Assembly: GCA_030600655.1 (NCBI GenBank)
Contig: JAUVLP010000005.1
Coordinates: forward strand, 1 to 49,944
DNA length: 49,944 nt
Reading direction: 5' to 3'
Origin: Candidatus Eiseniibacteriota bacterium
GTDB lineage: Bacteria; Joyebacterota; Joyebacteria; Joyebacterales; Joyebacteraceae
This document shows positions 40,805-49,943 of this stretch, piece after piece. The translations under genes were made by a program, and so were the position numbers. How positions within the stretch are numbered: position 1 is the first letter of the stretch; every line of letters starts with the position of its first letter. Below the pieces are notes generated by a model, which was not told where the DNA came from, did no database searches, and saw only the letters and a list, made by a program, of their open reading frames with translations.

Positions 40805-42745
40805 ATGCGATACGGCAAAGTCCTGGTGGTGGTGGCAGCTCTGCTCGTCACGTTCCTTCCCCAAACGGCGCTCGGCCTCAGGGTGGTTACATACAACGTA
40901 CTCAATTTCCCCGGCACAACTGGCTCGGCCCGTGAGGACGATTTCGTAAAGGTCTGCGATGAGCTCGACGCGGACATAATCGTCGTGCAGGAGATGCTCA
41001 GCCTTGCAGGCACGAACCAGTTCCTGAACGACATCCTGAACTACACTGTACCCGGGACATATGCCGCCGGCCCATTCGTGAACGGATACGATACCGACAA
41101 TGCTCTCTTCTACCGCACAGCCACCGTGGACTACATCTCGCACCAGGAGATATCCACGGCCCTCAGGAACATCTCCGAGTACGTCCTCCGTCCTGTCGGC
41201 TACAGCTCCTCTGATGCAGAGCTCACGATTTACTCTCTCCACCTCAAGGCTGGGTCTAGTTCATCGGACCAGACGAAGCGCCTGACTGAGGCGACGATAC
41301 TCAGAAACCACACGAACAATCTTGACCCCGACACCCACTTCATCATCGCCGGCGATTTCAATATCAGAGGGAGTTCCGAGAACGCATACCAGAAGCTGGT
41401 GGGAAGCGAGGCGGACAACGACGGTCGTGTGAAGGATCCCATCAACAGATCCGGGTATTGGCACGACAGCTACACGTTCAGGGACATCCACACGCAGTCT
41501 CCACGCACAACGCAGTTCGGTGGAGGCGCAACGGGCGGGATGGATGACCGCTTCGACCAGCTCCTCATCTCATACCCACTCGACGACGGGAACGGCCTAT
41601 CGTACGTATCCGGAAGTCACGTTGCCTACGGTAATGACGGCGGCCATCTGAACCAGGCCATCAACTACGGCACGAACTACGCCGTCGGATCCGTCATCGC
41701 CGACGCGCTTCACGAGGCATCCGATCATATCCCGGTCTACGCGGATTTCCAGGTGCCTGCGAAGATCGACTGTGCATCATCACTGGCATTCGGCGAGGTG
41801 ATCGTCGGTGCGGTCGCAGAAGAGATTCTCTCTGTCGGCAACTCCGCCACCACTCCGGCGGACGACCTTGACTACTCGTTCAGCGCTCCTTCCGGCTTCG
41901 AAGCGCCTGCCGGTGGTTTCTCTGAGCCCTCAGCTGGAAGCAGTGGGCACACCATCTCTATGAACACCTCCTCAACCGGGGCGCAAGCAGGCAACCTGGT
42001 GGTGTCATCGAACGACGTCGACCTGCCGTCGGCGAGCGTCGCTCTCTCAGGAACAGTACTCGACCATGCCACACCGTCGCTTGCGGCGGCGGAGATCCTC
42101 CTGGTCAACACTCTCGATTTCGGGACACACGACGCGGGCGACTTCGACCAGATGGAGATCAGCATTCACAACTTCGAATACGACAGCCTCCAGGCAACGC
42201 TTGAGATCTACGATGCCGAGATCGTCGGAGGCGAAGGGTTCTTCTCGATCGCCGGCGGATTCTCCAGTCAGGAGGCCGGATCTACACCCGCGGACTACGG
42301 TCTTGTGTTCGACGACGCCTCGGCGTCGACGGGCGTAGTCTACGAAGCGGTTCTCACATTCAGCACACGCGACCTTCCAGGCATAGCCGGTGGAACAGTA
42401 CACGATGATCTCACCATTCACCTGAGCGCGTGTCCCCTGAACGGCACATCGGTGCCGTCCGACGCCACGCGTTTCGCGCTTGCTCCCGGCAGACCCAATC
42501 CGTTCACTGACGCAACGGTACTCCAGTTATCGCTGCCGGCTGCGACAAAGGCCAGAGTGCTTGTATTCGACGTCTCCGGCAGACTTGTGAGAACTCTTGT
42601 CTCAGAGGTTCTGAGCGCGGGCGACCATGCTGTGCCGTGGGACGGTAGAGATGACCGCGATAAGCTCGTGGCATCGGGCATCTATCTCATACGCGCTGAT
42701 GCCGGCGAGTGGCAGCAATCGCGGAAAACTGTGTTCCTGCGGTAA
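40805..42745 (+). CDS. Secreted endonuclease/exonuclease/phosphatase-family protein with FlgD-like sorting domain
   Basis: 646 residues from ATG 40805, preceded by AGGAAGAGAG; a signal peptide covers about 1-24 (LVVVAALLVTFLP). The EEP fold spans about 25-315 with its usual motifs: T-Y-N-V-L-N (N31), V-V-Q-E-M (E63), S-L-H-L-K (H146), A-G-D-F-N-I (D184, N186) and A-S-D-H-I-P (D307, H308). Thus a metal-dependent phosphodiesterase or nuclease activity is likely. Residues about 325-435 form an Ig/ASH-like region, followed by a second beta domain and a FlgD-like domain ending K-T-V-F-L-R. Possibly an extracellular nuclease that scavenges phosphate or nucleotides; substrate unproven. Confidence 0.9.
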   Translation: MRYGKVLVVVAALLVTFLPQTALGLRVVTYNVLNFPGTTGSAREDDFVKVCDELDADIIVVQEMLSLAGTNQFLNDILNYTVPGTYAAGPFVNGYDTDNALFYRTATVDYISHQEISTALRNISEYVLRPVGYSSSDAELTIYSLHLKAGSSSSDQTKRLTEATILRNHTNNLDPDTHFIIAGDFNIRGSSENAYQKLVGSEADNDGRVKDPINRSGYWHDSYTFRDIHTQSPRTTQFGGGATGGMDDRFDQLLISYPLDDGNGLSYVSGSHVAYGNDGGHLNQAINYGTNYAVGSVIADALHEASDHIPVYADFQVPAKIDCASSLAFGEVIVGAVAEEILSVGNSATTPADDLDYSFSAPSGFEAPAGGFSEPSAGSSGHTISMNTSSTGAQAGNLVVSSNDVDLPSASVALSGTVLDHATPSLAAAEILLVNTLDFGTHDAGDFDQMEISIHNFEYDSLQATLEIYDAEIVGGEGFFSIAGGFSSQEAGSTPADYGLVFDDASASTGVVYEAVLTFSTRDLPGIAGGTVHDDLTIHLSACPLNGTSVPSDATRFALAPGRPNPFTDATVLQLSLPAATKARVLVFDVSGRLVRTLVSEVLSAGDHAVPWDGRDDRDKLVASGIYLIRADAGEWQQSRKTVFLR

Positions 42746-42765
42746 ATCGTAACTCAAGAAAACTC

Positions 42766-42793
42766 TTGCCAAACTGCATACATGTGATAGAAT
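42766..42793 (+). promoter_or_regulatory. Candidate promoter of the PEP-CTERM gene
   Basis: TTGCCA (42766-42771), 16 bases, then TAGAAT (42788-42793), about 60 bases before the start at 42856. Confidence 0.5.
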
Positions 42794-42855
42794 GGATGTT
42801 AGATGCAGATATGCACCAGAGACACACACGGAGATTCGCACTTGGGAGACTCATC

Positions 42856-43551
42856 ATGATGAGACAGCAACGACACTCTGCAAGCATTCGGAGCGCACTT
42901 GTGGTAGTGGCCGTTCTGGCCGCGATGCTCGTCCCCGCAGCAGCGTCAGCATATGTCGGCATGCTGCACAACTACGATGACGGCCTCACAGGAACCGGCA
43001 ACTGGTTCTACGGGGAAAACTCGACCTGGATCGAGTGGAACGTTACCCAGAACGTGGATAACTCCTGGCACTACGCCTACTACTTCGGTCACCCAACGGG
43101 CGAAACCAGTCATTTCATCCTTGAGGTCTCTGACAATTTCACCAGGAACGATATCTTCGGAGAGTTCGGCGACTTCGCGGGCATCGACATTGGAACCCAC
43201 GCGGTCGGGTCAGGGAACTTCAACATGCCTGAGGATATCTACGGCATCAAGTTCGATGAGACGTGGGGGATCAATACCCAGATTGAGTTTGACAGCTTCC
43301 GCGTTCCGGTCTGGGGTGACTTCTACGCCAAGGACGGAGAGGCTGGCGGACAGGGTTTCAACACCGCCTACAACACCGGATTCACCACGGCCGACTACGA
43401 CCCGATCGCCGCTGCGCAGGACGGCTCGATCGAATTCCACATCCTCGTGCCCGATAGCGAGAGCACACCGCCAGTGCCAGAGCCCGCAACACTTCTGCTC
43501 ATGGGCACGGGCCTGGCAGGACTCATCGCAGCAAGAAGGCGCCGCAGGTAG
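42856..43551 (+). CDS. PEP-CTERM sorting-domain protein
   Basis: 231 residues from ATG 42856, behind GGGAG; an ATG at 42859 is equivalent. The signal peptide covers about 1-32 (ALVVVAVLAAMLVPAAASA). The body is Asp/Gly/aromatic-rich and beta-like, with no recognised enzyme motif. The C-terminus is a classical PEP-CTERM signal: P-V-P-E-P-A-T, a hydrophobic helix L-L-L-M-G-T-G-L-A-G-L-I-A, then A-R-R-R-R-R. Such tails are recognised by an exosortase and removed during surface sorting, usually in exopolysaccharide-producing bacteria. No exosortase gene is in this window. A strong terminator follows. Confidence 0.9.
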   Translation: MMRQQRHSASIRSALVVVAVLAAMLVPAAASAYVGMLHNYDDGLTGTGNWFYGENSTWIEWNVTQNVDNSWHYAYYFGHPTGETSHFILEVSDNFTRNDIFGEFGDFAGIDIGTHAVGSGNFNMPEDIYGIKFDETWGINTQIEFDSFRVPVWGDFYAKDGEAGGQGFNTAYNTGFTTADYDPIAAAQDGSIEFHILVPDSESTPPVPEPATLLLMGTGLAGLIAARRRRR

Positions 43552-45234: not shown

Positions 45235-45804
45235 CTAACCATCCAGTTCATGTGCCACGTCGTGGCACTCCAGACATGACACCTCACCCGATTGCAGCTC
45301 CTCCAGAATCGCCTCGTGACCCCACCCCTCGAGGAAACTCTCGGCCTCACTGTGACATCTCAGACAGATGCTCGTGTCGTACTCTCCGTCAAGCTCCAGT
45401 TCCTCGGGGAACTCACCAAGATAGTGGGCATAAGCATTGTGCAGCCCCTTCTTCTTGGCCTCCAGAAACCCGGACAGCCCGGGTCGAGTATGACACTCGT
45501 AGCACGCGGTCTCCCGGTCAACGAAGTCGTTCCCGAAATGCACAGCCGCTAGCGACTCGTTGTCGACGGCAAGGCCTTCGCCGTACTCCCACATTTCGTG
45601 ACACTGTGTGCAGAAGGAGACCTTCTTGAACTCATGGTCGGCGTAGCCCATCATTCCCGCGAGCCAGAGGATGGAGAAGACCGCCATCGCGAAGAACGCG
45701 AGAACCCTCTTAGGGCGTGTCGCGAGCGACTTCATCCTTCTCGTGAGAACCAGGAGCAATACAACCAGCACGCCGGCGCCCACTGCCAGTACCCAGTAGA
45801 TCAC
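45235..45804 (-). CDS. NapC/NrfH-like membrane-anchored tetrahaem cytochrome c
   Basis: 189 residues from GTG 45804, six bases after the previous stop and overlapping its ribosome site. Two hydrophobic segments (about 3-20 and 34-51) are followed by a soluble part with four C-x-x-C-H haem sites at 65-69, 101-105, 147-151 and 177-181. This is the NapC/NirT/NrfH quinol-dehydrogenase layout, although those proteins usually have one anchor. It would pass electrons from quinol to periplasmic partners. No terminal reductase gene is in the window; the operon's mono-haem cytochrome is a candidate partner. It is the last gene of the nqr-cytochrome operon. Confidence 0.88.
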   Translation of the reverse strand: MIYWVLAVGAGVLVVLLLVLTRRMKSLATRPKRVLAFFAMAVFSILWLAGMMGYADHEFKKVSFCTQCHEMWEYGEGLAVDNESLAAVHFGNDFVDRETACYECHTRPGLSGFLEAKKKGLHNAYAHYLGEFPEELELDGEYDTSICLRCHSEAESFLEGWGHEAILEELQSGEVSCLECHDVAHELDG

Positions 45805-46382: not shown

Positions 46383-46454
46383 TCAAGCTGATTCCGACCA
46401 AGACTCGCGTGCGGCCTATCAAGCTGATTCCGGCCAAGACCCGCGTGCGGCCTA
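46383..46454. repeat. 36-bp tandem duplication at a gene end
   Basis: Two adjacent 36-bp copies (46383-46418 and 46419-46454) differ at two bases. The right copy includes the stop codon of the ferritin-like gene (46452-46454). Confidence 0.95.
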
Positions 46455-46904
46455 GAAGTAGTCCATCGCCTTGATCTTCTTGAGCTCGATGGTGTCTCCC
46501 TCCTCAGCCTGAACCAGGCTCTCGAAGAGGTCCTTGACCTCCTGGTCGACGTCCTGCGCCAGAACCTGACGATACAGGTCGATCAGGCACCCGTCGATCT
46601 CGATCGCGATGTCCAGTACTTCTGCTGCCGTGGCGTCCGGGGGAAGTTCGCGCCCCTCGAAAGACGTGTAGTCAAGGGCGAGAGGTTCGTACCTGATCGG
46701 AAACGAGTTCAGTTCCTCCCGTTCGGCGCTACCGAGTCGCTCGAGAGCCTCCGACAGGTGGCGGCGGTGCCTCCCCATGTAGTCCGCGAGAAGTTTGACA
46801 CCGTCCGATGTCGTTTGTTCGGCGATCTTCGTGTAGTAGTCGACGAGCTTCGTTTCGAAATCCTCGGCCATCTTCAGCACGTCGGCCACAGTAATGATGG
46901 CCAT
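46452..46904 (-). CDS. Ferritin-like helical protein
   Basis: 150 residues from ATG 46904, with AAGGAG overlapping the nqrF stop. The sequence is helical, with a first helix E-D-F-E-T-K-L-V-D-Y-Y-T-K-I-A like small rubrerythrin-type proteins. The second-helix ligand motif reads R-H-R-R-H instead of E-x-x-H, and the fourth helix has E-E-G-D instead of E-x-x-H, so a normal di-iron site is doubtful. Lying between nqrF and cytochrome genes, it might assist the redox chain or respond to iron or oxygen. This is inference. I do not recognise a closer family. Confidence 0.78.
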   Translation of the reverse strand: MAIITVADVLKMAEDFETKLVDYYTKIAEQTTSDGVKLLADYMGRHRRHLSEALERLGSAEREELNSFPIRYEPLALDYTSFEGRELPPDATAAEVLDIAIEIDGCLIDLYRQVLAQDVDQEVKDLFESLVQAEEGDTIELKKIKAMDYF

Positions 46905-46917
46905 GGTTCTTCTCCTT

Positions 46918-48012
46918 CTAGAACTTGTCGTAGAAGATGTCGCCCTCTTCAAATCCCTTCTCTTCCAGAACCTTCATGACGGCCTCGATCATCGGAGGCG
47001 GACCGCAGAGAAACGCGTGTCGTTTCACGTCATCTGCCTCAAGGTGCTTGTCAACCGAGACGTGGATAAAACCTGTCTCGCCGTCCCACTCACCACCCTC
47101 AGGGTCATGATCGGATAGCGCGTAGATGACACGAAAATTCGGGTTCTTCTTCGCCAGCTCGCGGAACTCGTCGAGGTAGAACACATCCCTCGCGGAGCGG
47201 CAGCCAAAGAAGAGCCGGCACTTCCGGTCCGGCCAACGCTCGCACACGCTGAAAAGGATGTTCTTCAACGGCGCCATGCCTGAGCCGCCGCCGATGCAGA
47301 CGATCTCAACGTCCGGATCCTCACTCAACCGAAACTCTCCGTACGGGCCCGTCAAGACTATCGGATCCCCTTTCTTCAGACTGTGCGCGTAAGTGGAACC
47401 TATCCCTCCGGGCACCAGCCGAACAACAAGCTCGATGACGCCTGTCTCATACGCGGGTGAGCTGATGGAGTAGGCACGGAAGACCGGCCCATCCGGAGAG
47501 GGCGCCTGCAGCTGCACGTATTGCCCGGGGCGCTGCTCGATCTCCGCGGGCTCCTTGAGCTCAAAACGCGTCTCGACCATGTCGTGCGTCAGCATACGCA
47601 CGCCCTCGACCGTCCCCGTGAAGAGCTGAACGTTGAGGAGTTCCTCCGGAATCTTGATCTCGAGATCCTCACGGACCTTGACCTGGCAAGCAAGCCGAAC
47701 ACCAGAACGCACCTGCGATCGGGTTAGAAACGGCATCTCTGTCGGCAGGACCGCGCCGCCGCCGGAAACCACGGTGATGGTGCAGTACCCGCACGAGCCA
47801 CGGCCGCCACAGCCGGATGGAATGAAGATCTTTGACTCGATAAGGGCAGAGAGAAGCGTCTGCCCACCCTCGACCTCAAGAACGAGGTCTCCGGAGTTGA
47901 TATCGATCTTGCAGATGCCGTAGTTCACGAGCAATCGCTCGGCGACCGTGAGCGCGACCGCAAGAGCAACGAGGATTCCCGTGAAGACCAGTATGGGGAG
48001 AAAGAAGATCAT
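46918..48012 (-). CDS. nqrF: Na+-translocating NADH:quinone reductase subunit F
   Basis: 364 residues from ATG 48012 (GTG 48015 is equally near the nqrE stop). One N-terminal membrane helix (about 2-24) is followed by a 2Fe-2S domain with C68, C74, C77 and C109. An FAD domain contains R179-A-Y-S and an NAD domain contains G-G-G-S-G-M-A-P (241-248) and C-G-P-P-P-M. NqrF accepts electrons from NADH and passes them into the sodium pump. It is somewhat shorter than the approximately 405 residues usual in Vibrio. It follows nqrE by seven bases and precedes the ferritin-like gene by 13. Confidence 0.96.
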   Translation of the reverse strand: MIFFLPILVFTGILVALAVALTVAERLLVNYGICKIDINSGDLVLEVEGGQTLLSALIESKIFIPSGCGGRGSCGYCTITVVSGGGAVLPTEMPFLTRSQVRSGVRLACQVKVREDLEIKIPEELLNVQLFTGTVEGVRMLTHDMVETRFELKEPAEIEQRPGQYVQLQAPSPDGPVFRAYSISSPAYETGVIELVVRLVPGGIGSTYAHSLKKGDPIVLTGPYGEFRLSEDPDVEIVCIGGGSGMAPLKNILFSVCERWPDRKCRLFFGCRSARDVFYLDEFRELAKKNPNFRVIYALSDHDPEGGEWDGETGFIHVSVDKHLEADDVKRHAFLCGPPPMIEAVMKVLEEKGFEEGDIFYDKF

Positions 48013-48019
48013 CACTTGC

Positions 48020-48610
48020 CTACTGTATCGTGACCATGCCGGCGAATCCCATGAACGTCATAGCCATTACGCCGGTGATGACCATGGCGATGGCGACACC
48101 CCTGAATGGAACAGGGACGATGCTGTATCTCATCTTCTGTCTCAACCCGGCGATCAGGATGATCGCCAGCGTCCACCCAACGCCCCCGCCGAAACCGAAC
48201 GCGATCGACTGCATGAACGTGTAGTTCCTGATGATCATGAAGAGCGATACGCCCAGGATCGCGCAGTTGACGGTGATGAGCGGCAGGAAGATCCCCAGCG
48301 CATGATAGAGCACGGGGCTGAAGCGTTCGACGAACATCTCCACGAACTGTACGAAAGCCGCTATCACAGTGATGAAGATGATGTACGAGAGGAACGTGAG
48401 TTCCATTGGAACGAGCACGTGGTGGTAGATGCCGTAGTTGATCGCTGTCGTGAACGTCGTGACGAAGATCACGGCAGCGCCGAGCCCGGCCGCGGTGTCG
48501 ATACGCTTCGACACCGCGAGGAACGAACACATCCCCAGGAAGTTCGCCAACAGGATGTTGTTGGTGAAGATCGCCGCTACGAGGATGACAAGGGGTGATA
48601 CTTCACCCAT
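48020..48610 (-). CDS. nqrE: Na+-translocating NADH:quinone reductase subunit E
   Basis: 196 residues, ATG at 48610 with GAAGGGGA upstream, two bases after the nqrD stop. Six membrane helices and the family blocks F-T-N-N-I-L-L-A-N-F-L-G-M-C and L-P-L-I-T-V-N-C-A-I-L-G are present. The two Cys residues in these blocks ligate the intramembrane 2Fe-2S cluster shared with NqrD. It is part of the membrane core of the sodium pump. Rnf subunit RnfA is the close homologue, but the NqrF next door settles the assignment. Confidence 0.96.
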   Translation of the reverse strand: MGEVSPLVILVAAIFTNNILLANFLGMCSFLAVSKRIDTAAGLGAAVIFVTTFTTAINYGIYHHVLVPMELTFLSYIIFITVIAAFVQFVEMFVERFSPVLYHALGIFLPLITVNCAILGVSLFMIIRNYTFMQSIAFGFGGGVGWTLAIILIAGLRQKMRYSIVPVPFRGVAIAMVITGVMAMTFMGFAGMVTIQ

Positions 48611-48612
48611 CG

Positions 48613-49284
48613 CTAGTTCCCCTTCCCTTCAGGCTTGTTGATACCGGTGATCGCATTATGGAGAGCGATCAGGAAGCCGAGTGCAATGAACGCCCCAGGC
48701 GCCAGGATCATCAGCTGATTCGGTGTGTACCAGTCGGCCCCGAGAATCTGGTGGCCGAAGAGCGCTCCTGTTCCCATGAGCTCTCGGACGAACCCGATGA
48801 TCCCGAGGACGAGCGCGTACCCGAGACCGTTGGCGAGACCATCGAGCATCGACACAACCGGGCGGTTCGACAGCGCGAATGCCTCGGCACGTCCCATGAT
48901 GATGCAGTTGGTGATGATAAGGCCGACGTATGGACCGAGCTGCTTCGACATCTCCAAGTAGTACGCCCTGAGTATCTGGTCGAAGATGATCACGAATGTG
49001 GCGATGATGGCCACCTCCGCTATCATCCGGATGCGTCTGGGTGTCACGTTCCTGAGAAGCGACACAAACAGATTCGTGCCCACACAAACGAACATAAGGG
49101 CAGCACCCATGACGAGCGCGTTCTCGAGCTTGTTTGTCACGGCCAGAGCGGAACAGACGCCGAGCACCTGGACGGAGACCGGATTGGTCACCCAGACACC
49201 GGCTCGGAGTGTCTCCCTGCCCTTCCCGTCACAGGGACCGGATCCTCCGCAGATAGCGCAGACTACTGGTCCGCTATGCGCCAT
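48613..49284 (-). CDS. nqrD: Na+-translocating NADH:quinone reductase subunit D with Cys-rich N-terminal extension
   Basis: 223 residues from ATG 49284, with AGGAGCGG upstream and overlapping the nqrC stop by 11 bases. The core is standard NqrD: N-P-V-S-V-Q-V-L-G-V-C-S-A-L-A-V-T-N, L-I-I-T-N-C-I-I-M-G-R-A-E-A and six helices, with the two Cys that ligate the intramembrane cluster. Unusually, residues 8-22 read V-C-A-I-C-G-G-S-G-P-C-D-G-K-G, containing C9-x-x-C12-x-G-x-G and C18-x-G-x-G, which resemble a DnaJ-type zinc-finger repeat. A later start would remove it, but no good one exists before the conserved core. Confidence 0.93.
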   Translation of the reverse strand: MAHSGPVVCAICGGSGPCDGKGRETLRAGVWVTNPVSVQVLGVCSALAVTNKLENALVMGAALMFVCVGTNLFVSLLRNVTPRRIRMIAEVAIIATFVIIFDQILRAYYLEMSKQLGPYVGLIITNCIIMGRAEAFALSNRPVVSMLDGLANGLGYALVLGIIGFVRELMGTGALFGHQILGADWYTPNQLMILAPGAFIALGFLIALHNAITGINKPEGKGN

Positions 49285-49909
49285 GGGCTCCGCTCCTCGC
49301 AATGATCCTCTCGATGATCTCGCTCAGCATGTCCTCGACCTTGTCGCTGGTCATCGTCGCTCCGGTGATGGCATCGATCTCGTTCACCTGATCGGCACCG
49401 TCGTTGACGAGATGGATGCCCGGATATCCCAATGGTCCCACGATCATCTTCCCACGGAACTGGTCCTGGAAATCCGCGGACGATATCTGGCCGCCCAGCC
49501 CGGGAGTCTCTTCCTGCTTGTAGAATGAGATGGCGTAGATCGTGCGCATGTCCTCCTCGAGACAGATCAGTCCCTCGATCGGAGCCAACAATCCCGGCCC
49601 GGAGAAACGCGTCGCTCGAAGCTTGCCTGCTTCCGGATGCCGGCTCACAAAGAACGTGAGTCCATCAATCTCCTCTTCACCTACCATTGATTCATACACG
49701 GCCAGAAGGTCCGACGAACTCGCTTGTGCGTCGAACGGCACGCCGAGCACCGTGAGAATGTCCTGAACCTCCTCCGCCTGCACATTTGCGACCTTCCTCG
49801 TCTCCGTGAAGCGATCGACCGCAGTCAGGGCAGCCGCACAGGTGATTCCGAGAACCGCCGCGTAGAGAATCGTATACGAGCTACCCTTTTTCCCGAAGCC
49901 TCCGAACAT
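49274..49909 (-). CDS. nqrC: Na+-translocating NADH:quinone reductase subunit C
   Basis: 211 residues from ATG 49909; TTG 49921 is an alternative four codons upstream. One membrane helix (about 12-32) is followed by a periplasmic FMN-binding domain. T185 in I-T-G-A-T-M-T-S is the expected covalent FMN attachment site, and G-L-G-G-Q-I-S-S precedes it as in the family. It is shorter than Vibrio NqrC (about 257 residues). The start lies inside the end of nqrB, and the stop overlaps nqrD, so the genes are tightly coupled. Confidence 0.94.
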   Translation of the reverse strand: MFGGFGKKGSSYTILYAAVLGITCAAALTAVDRFTETRKVANVQAEEVQDILTVLGVPFDAQASSSDLLAVYESMVGEEEIDGLTFFVSRHPEAGKLRATRFSGPGLLAPIEGLICLEEDMRTIYAISFYKQEETPGLGGQISSADFQDQFRGKMIVGPLGYPGIHLVNDGADQVNEIDAITGATMTSDKVEDMLSEIIERIIARSGAHGA

Positions 49910-49943
49910 GAGCCGTGACAAAGAGCTCGTCGAGGACCGGCGC
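49881..49943 (-). CDS. nqrB: C-terminal end of NADH:quinone reductase subunit B
   Basis: In another frame, the last bases of the window read A-P-V-L-D-E-L-F-V-T-A-H-V-R-R-L-R-E-K-G and stop at 49881. This matches the usual NqrB end (A-P-L-F-D-x-x-V-x-x-x-x-x-x-R-R). The rest lies beyond the right edge. It overlaps the nqrC start by about 29 bases, as expected in this operon. The assignment rests on 20 residues plus gene order. Confidence 0.72.
   Translation of the reverse strand, partial: APVLDELFVTAHVRRLREKG

Follow-up and report, generated by a model that had tools for sequence, protein, structure and literature searches.

Subunit D of Na+-NQR (NqrD) carries, in the genome considered here, an N-terminal extension with three closely spaced cysteines, which raises the question of whether this extension is a real and selected part of the protein and what it could add to a sodium pump. 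The window, i.e. the whole stretch of 49,944 nucleotides of DNA that was analysed, encodes this 223-aa NqrD on the minus strand at 48613..49284, coordinates that an earlier reading made from the letters of the DNA (the sequence-only reading) had given correctly. The protein scores above both NCBIfam equivalog cut-offs for NqrD (NF006777, 253.4 bits against 235; TIGR01939, 246.2 against 244.85), and it matches the NqrD chain of Vibrio cholerae (PDB 7xk3_D) with 215.6 bits. The alignment to Vibrio starts only at residue 25, which pairs with chain residue 10, so that window residues 1-24 replace about nine residues and the protein is about 15 residues longer. Both cysteines of the intramembrane [2Fe-2S] cluster are present in the window protein; the two NqrD columns are Cys in 14 of 14 tail carriers and in all 95 non-carrier NqrD proteins that formed the comparison set.

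The partner of NqrD in holding this cluster is encoded by nqrE (48020..48610, minus strand), which is directly followed, with no RnfB gene in between, by nqrF (46918..48015, minus strand). The NqrF of this operon has Fer2, FAD and NAD domains and a juxtamembrane cysteine, Cys35, in the sequence NYGIC (codon at about 47913-47911). On the other side, nqrC (49274..49921, minus strand) lies at the contig end with its frame still open at 49942, and nqrA and nqrB of the same genome are located on contig C94. An antisense open frame of 236 aa (48595-49305, plus strand) spans the whole of nqrD and is probably a by-product of high GC content.

Several neighbouring genes were also recorded. A protein judged by eye to be ferritin-like, without a Pfam or NCBIfam match, is encoded directly after nqrF in the family (46452..46904, minus strand in the window), followed by a monoheme c-type cytochrome and then a NapC/NrfH-like multiheme cytochrome (45235-45804). 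A secreted-looking protein with a PEP-CTERM-like tail, again by eye, is found at 42709-43551 (plus strand).

Conservation of the NqrD extension

The extended protein begins with MAHSGPVVCAICGGSGPCDGKG and contains the cysteine/glycine motif C9-A-I-C12-G-G-S-G-P-C18-D-G-K-G (residues 9-22, CAICGGSGPCDGKG; codons at 49219..49260, minus strand). Its ATG is at 49284, with GAGGAG 8 bases upstream, and the first 11 nt of the gene overlap the end of nqrC (stop at 49274); this ribosome site, the overlap and the conservation of the extension together support the start. The codons of the motif (Cys9, 49260-49258; Cys12, 49251-49249; Cys18, 49233-49231; GKG to 49219) are outside the overlap.

By aligning the N-termini of relatives, a check that had been proposed for the extension, the cysteines were found in close relatives, which bears out the claim that a cysteine-containing extension is present. 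The phylum sample comprised 20 genomes, all from one family, and this NqrD occurs in 12 of them including the window's own, the other 11 proteins being 73-97% identical to it (that of genome G018 is split over two contigs). All 12 family proteins whose N-terminus could be read have the strict motif C-x2-C-x(4-7)-C-[DG]-G-[KR]-G. Indels vary the spacer from 4 to 7 residues, the residues between the cysteines and glycines of the tail vary freely, and the Cys9 and Cys18 codons show synonymous TGC/TGT changes across the family. The plain reading of these substitution patterns is purifying selection on the tail cysteines and glycines; strict retention in 12 of 12, synonymous cysteine codon changes and varying spacers argue that the motif is not a matter of chance. 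Drift or a wrongly called start codon, leaving the tail untranslated or unselected, would fit its place outside the domain core and its poor conservation apart from Cys, Gly and Lys, but the same complete retention and codon changes, together with a common start position, make this very unlikely. Since it is kept across the 12 family genomes and also occurs in Phycisphaerae, the extension is almost surely real and translated. The RnfE proteins examined from family genomes lack the motif; separately, an RnfE match in the window's genome (G000:C21:14751-15353) has a TAG within its aligned range.

The sequence-only reading had likened the motif to DnaJ, as CxxCxGxG plus half a repeat. The half repeat, CxGKG, is general and is more conserved in the tails than the CxxC pair, whereas the full CxxCxGxG is present in the window's genus and is not general. 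Each zinc of DnaJ needs four cysteines. With three cysteines, an unconserved glycine pattern after the second and no Pfam domain match, a DnaJ-type zinc domain is scarcely credible despite these partial resemblances, and that part of the claim falls away.

Tail bearers and an NqrA with RnfC-type motifs

Outside the family, the tail was traced in several genome sets. Among 386 sampled genomes, 38 have a match at E values up to 1e-54, and only family members exceed 60% identity. A scan of named genomes, considering the best 80 matches, identified two Phycisphaerae bins, L034 (whose NqrD is cut at a contig edge) and L035. With the L035 genome as the starting point, close relatives then turned up in 19 of the 298 genomes in its class and in 4 of the 392 in its phylum, two of the latter being new. 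Within the 21 Phycisphaerae N-termini, the strict motif occurs in 11, cysteines altered in number or spacing in seven (L189, L196, L200, L201, L202, L207 and L208) and no tail in three, L204-L206, whose NqrA is of the type found in the tail bearers. Most tails have only two or three cysteines, and L189, L196 and L200 have two. All distinct NqrD/RnfE proteins read (n=144, excluding L207 and L208, which were examined separately) comprised 23 with the strict motif, five with a looser form and 116 without it. Every tail bearer belongs to one NQR clade, formed by the window's phylum and Phycisphaerae and referred to here as FeS-NQR. The tail would most simply have arisen inside this clade by one gain followed by at least three alterations; a single gain is simplest because the tail-less L204-L206 branch first within it.

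The clade is further distinguished by its NqrA. Two CxxCxxCxxxC motifs are present in all 29 members with a readable nqrA (12 family genomes, including the window's own on contig C94, and 17 Phycisphaerae), a count that leaves out L190 and L197, which are cut before nqrA, as well as L207 and L208; the NqrA of L120 is split between two ORFs. At the eight columns of the RnfC [4Fe-4S] ligands, every one of the 8 clade NqrA proteins aligned has Cys throughout, as do 5 of 5 RnfC proteins. Among 35 canonical NqrA proteins, the first six columns hold 0-1 Cys; at the seventh and eighth, 31 and 23 of the proteins still have one, and these cysteines look like vestiges. The RnfC FMN loop GGAAFP is replaced in clade NqrA by an LGAWQF-like sequence, as in NqrA. 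Pfam found Fer4 domains in these proteins in addition to NQRA_2nd and NQRA_SLBB above cut-off in L116 and L113 (NQRA_2nd only in L035), and Foldseek with a model of the protein gave V. cholerae NqrA as the top match and RnfC next; AlphaFold produced no confident structure in the Fe-S part. The NCBIfam cut-offs for NqrA are not reached, and so the present cut-offs miss clade NqrA proteins. An NqrA without Fe-S cluster motifs, which is a criterion for Na+-NQR, is absent from the clade, and so are the RnfC FMN glycine loop and RnfB, which are criteria for RNF. An open-access literature search, with most subscription papers outside it, turned up no description of Fe-S motifs in NqrA, nor of a cysteine tail on NqrD.

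The quinone site provides further information on the chemistry of the complex. At the NqrB positions that align with G140, G141 and N156-F159 of V. cholerae, residues whose roles are described in a section of PMC10643135, the clade is like canonical NQR and unlike RNF (D-G-S-A), with matches at G140 (25/25 ungapped), E157 and G158 (25/25 each) and F159 (22/25). Because of this agreement with canonical NQR and difference from RNF, electrons are likely to leave FeS-NQR through the reduction of quinone at NqrB. In both lineages a gene assigned by eye to polyprenyl diphosphate synthase follows nqrF at a short distance downstream (L116, 6245-7249; L035, 10370-11359), which provides a link to quinone synthesis.

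Trees of NqrB, NqrD and NqrE, rooted on RNF, were used to place the clade. Rows were thinned to 64 out of 109 and later set at 67, with 18 new Phycisphaerae and without L149, and a mixture model was run on 43 rows. Two hybrid operons, L150 and L153, branch first, then an NqrA-less nqrBCDEF clade, and then FeS-NQR as sister to all canonical NQR, with support of 99/98 in the 67-row tree and 100/99 under the mixture model. The alternatives joining the NqrA-less clade to FeS-NQR or to canonical NQR were rejected (AU p 0.007 and 0.001, respectively, for groups named after the first tree had been seen). The order of branches inside FeS-NQR is weaker than its placement. Moreover, the window's family is nested among Phycisphaerae rows, which suggests that the operon moved by horizontal transfer.

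The hybrids L150 (G020:C66:25000-40000) and L153 (G339:C53:4000-23000) combine nqrBCDE with an RnfC-like subunit bearing two [4Fe-4S] motifs and with NqrF, and no RnfB was seen beside either operon; L150 keeps the FMN loop GGGKGGFPT, which is partly eroded in L153. As read from their sequences, these operons are earlier steps of the RNF-to-NQR transition. In its relevant passage, PMC4014512 (Reyes-Prieto et al. 2014) proposes that NqrA is RnfC minus its NAD, FMN and [4Fe-4S] sites, after loss of RnfB, and a passage of a 2025 RNF paper (PMC11889175) likewise describes NqrA as having lost redox cofactors. FeS-NQR sits where the passage of PMC4014512 predicted an intermediate, and it looks like a living intermediate of the transition. 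Since clade NqrA keeps the cluster motifs and is without the FMN loop, the order of losses becomes readable, FMN first and Fe-S later. The clade also offers a natural comparison for the role of NqrA, which is debated.

Location and possible roles of the tail

NqrD is equivalent to RnfE by homology, and the topology of RnfE is inverted relative to RnfA according to a passage of PMC12174285, citing Saaf 1999. By this homology the tail would lie on the cytoplasmic face of the membrane, in agreement with the earlier expectation that the extension adjoins the membrane, and the charges of the NqrD loops appear to fit an inside N-terminus. In V. cholerae, as described in parts of PMC10643135 and PMC12174285, the ferredoxin-like domain of NqrF passes an electron to the intramembrane [2Fe-2S] at the cytoplasmic NqrD/E face. 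At this face, where NqrF docks, the tail is a candidate for an additional metal site. AlphaFold gave residues 1-19 of NqrD a pLDDT under 50, with no confident structure for the tail. There is also a likeness, and no more than that, between CGGKG in the tail and the loop (CGG[KR]G) that bears the first ligand of the NqrF cluster.

The favoured reading, to which we would give about an even chance, is that the tail was gained once in FeS-NQR and binds a metal with help from outside, the NqrA clusters being a side port or a relic. The metal, as zinc or in an Fe-S cluster, would take one or more ligands from beyond NqrD itself. It would be located beside the docking place of the NqrF ferredoxin-like domain on NqrD/E, where the tail would either anchor NqrF or add an electron step. 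The [4Fe-4S] sites of NqrA would probably be filled, letting electrons leave or enter by a side route between the NqrB riboflavin and a soluble carrier; alternatively, they may persist as a structural relic. The metal site itself is held with moderate confidence. The altered cysteines of seven clade members and the missing tail of three count against a rigid redox site.

A covarying fourth ligand was sought in NqrB, C, E and F, and none was found. Cys35 of NqrF appeared at first to be a candidate (13/13 carriers against 9/84 others), but it was weakened by its presence in the tail-less L204-L206. It was read in 32 of 32 clade proteins and in 9 of 84 outside; Cys35 thus goes with membership of the clade, whether or not the tail is present. 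A histidine of NqrE (FSxxLYH, 12/14) was ruled out by Phe in L034 and L035, and a cysteine of NqrC was ruled out by its expected periplasmic location and its absence in L035. This NqrC cysteine, in GL[IL]C, is near the region packing on FMN in V. cholerae NqrC and is found in 12 of 13 carriers and 1 of 94 others.

CxxC and CxG elements are common in zinc knuckles, and both are present in the tail. A structural zinc (or iron) knuckle, to which NqrF, NqrE or water would contribute the fourth ligand, could pin the swinging domain of NqrF with no redox role, and plastic spacing would be accommodated more readily by zinc than by a redox cluster; the two-cysteine members and the failure to find a covarying ligand in the four subunits speak against it, and it is regarded as possible but less probable. 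The two-cysteine tails would still be competent for a disulfide, as required if the tail were a metal-free redox-sensing thiol that tunes NqrF docking under oxygen stress. Such a disulfide would not need the CxGKG, which is better conserved than the CxxC pair, and this explanation is considered unlikely. Also doubtful is a two-port chain in an RNF/NQR intermediate, in which NADH would feed electrons through NqrF and an Fe-S centre in the tail, and the NqrA clusters would link the NqrB riboflavin to a carrier such as ferredoxin; if true, a single sodium pump would serve a low-potential pool as well as the quinone pool.

Comparison with known systems

Canonical Na+-NQR (V. cholerae, PDB 7xk3 and 8a1t) has in common with FeS-NQR the nqrABCDEF order, the NqrD/E cluster cysteines, the [2Fe-2S], FAD and NADH domains of NqrF and the NqrB quinone-site signature, whereas FeS-NQR differs from it in the two NqrA [4Fe-4S] motifs, the NqrD cysteine tail and the juxtamembrane Cys35 of NqrF. 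The cysteine-rich domain of DnaJ is similar in the CxGxG half repeat of the tail, but differs from its three cysteines, unconserved pattern and lack of a domain match. The NqrF-driven NqrBCDE core is common to FeS-NQR and the NqrA-less nqrBCDEF systems that a part of PMC5924567 describes from Clostridium ultunense and Pseudothermotoga, which differ in having no nqrA and in forming a separate clade in the tree. With RNF, FeS-NQR shares the eight RnfC [4Fe-4S] ligand cysteines in NqrA; it differs in having NqrF instead of RnfB, no GGAAFP FMN loop and NqrB quinone columns that are not RNF-like.
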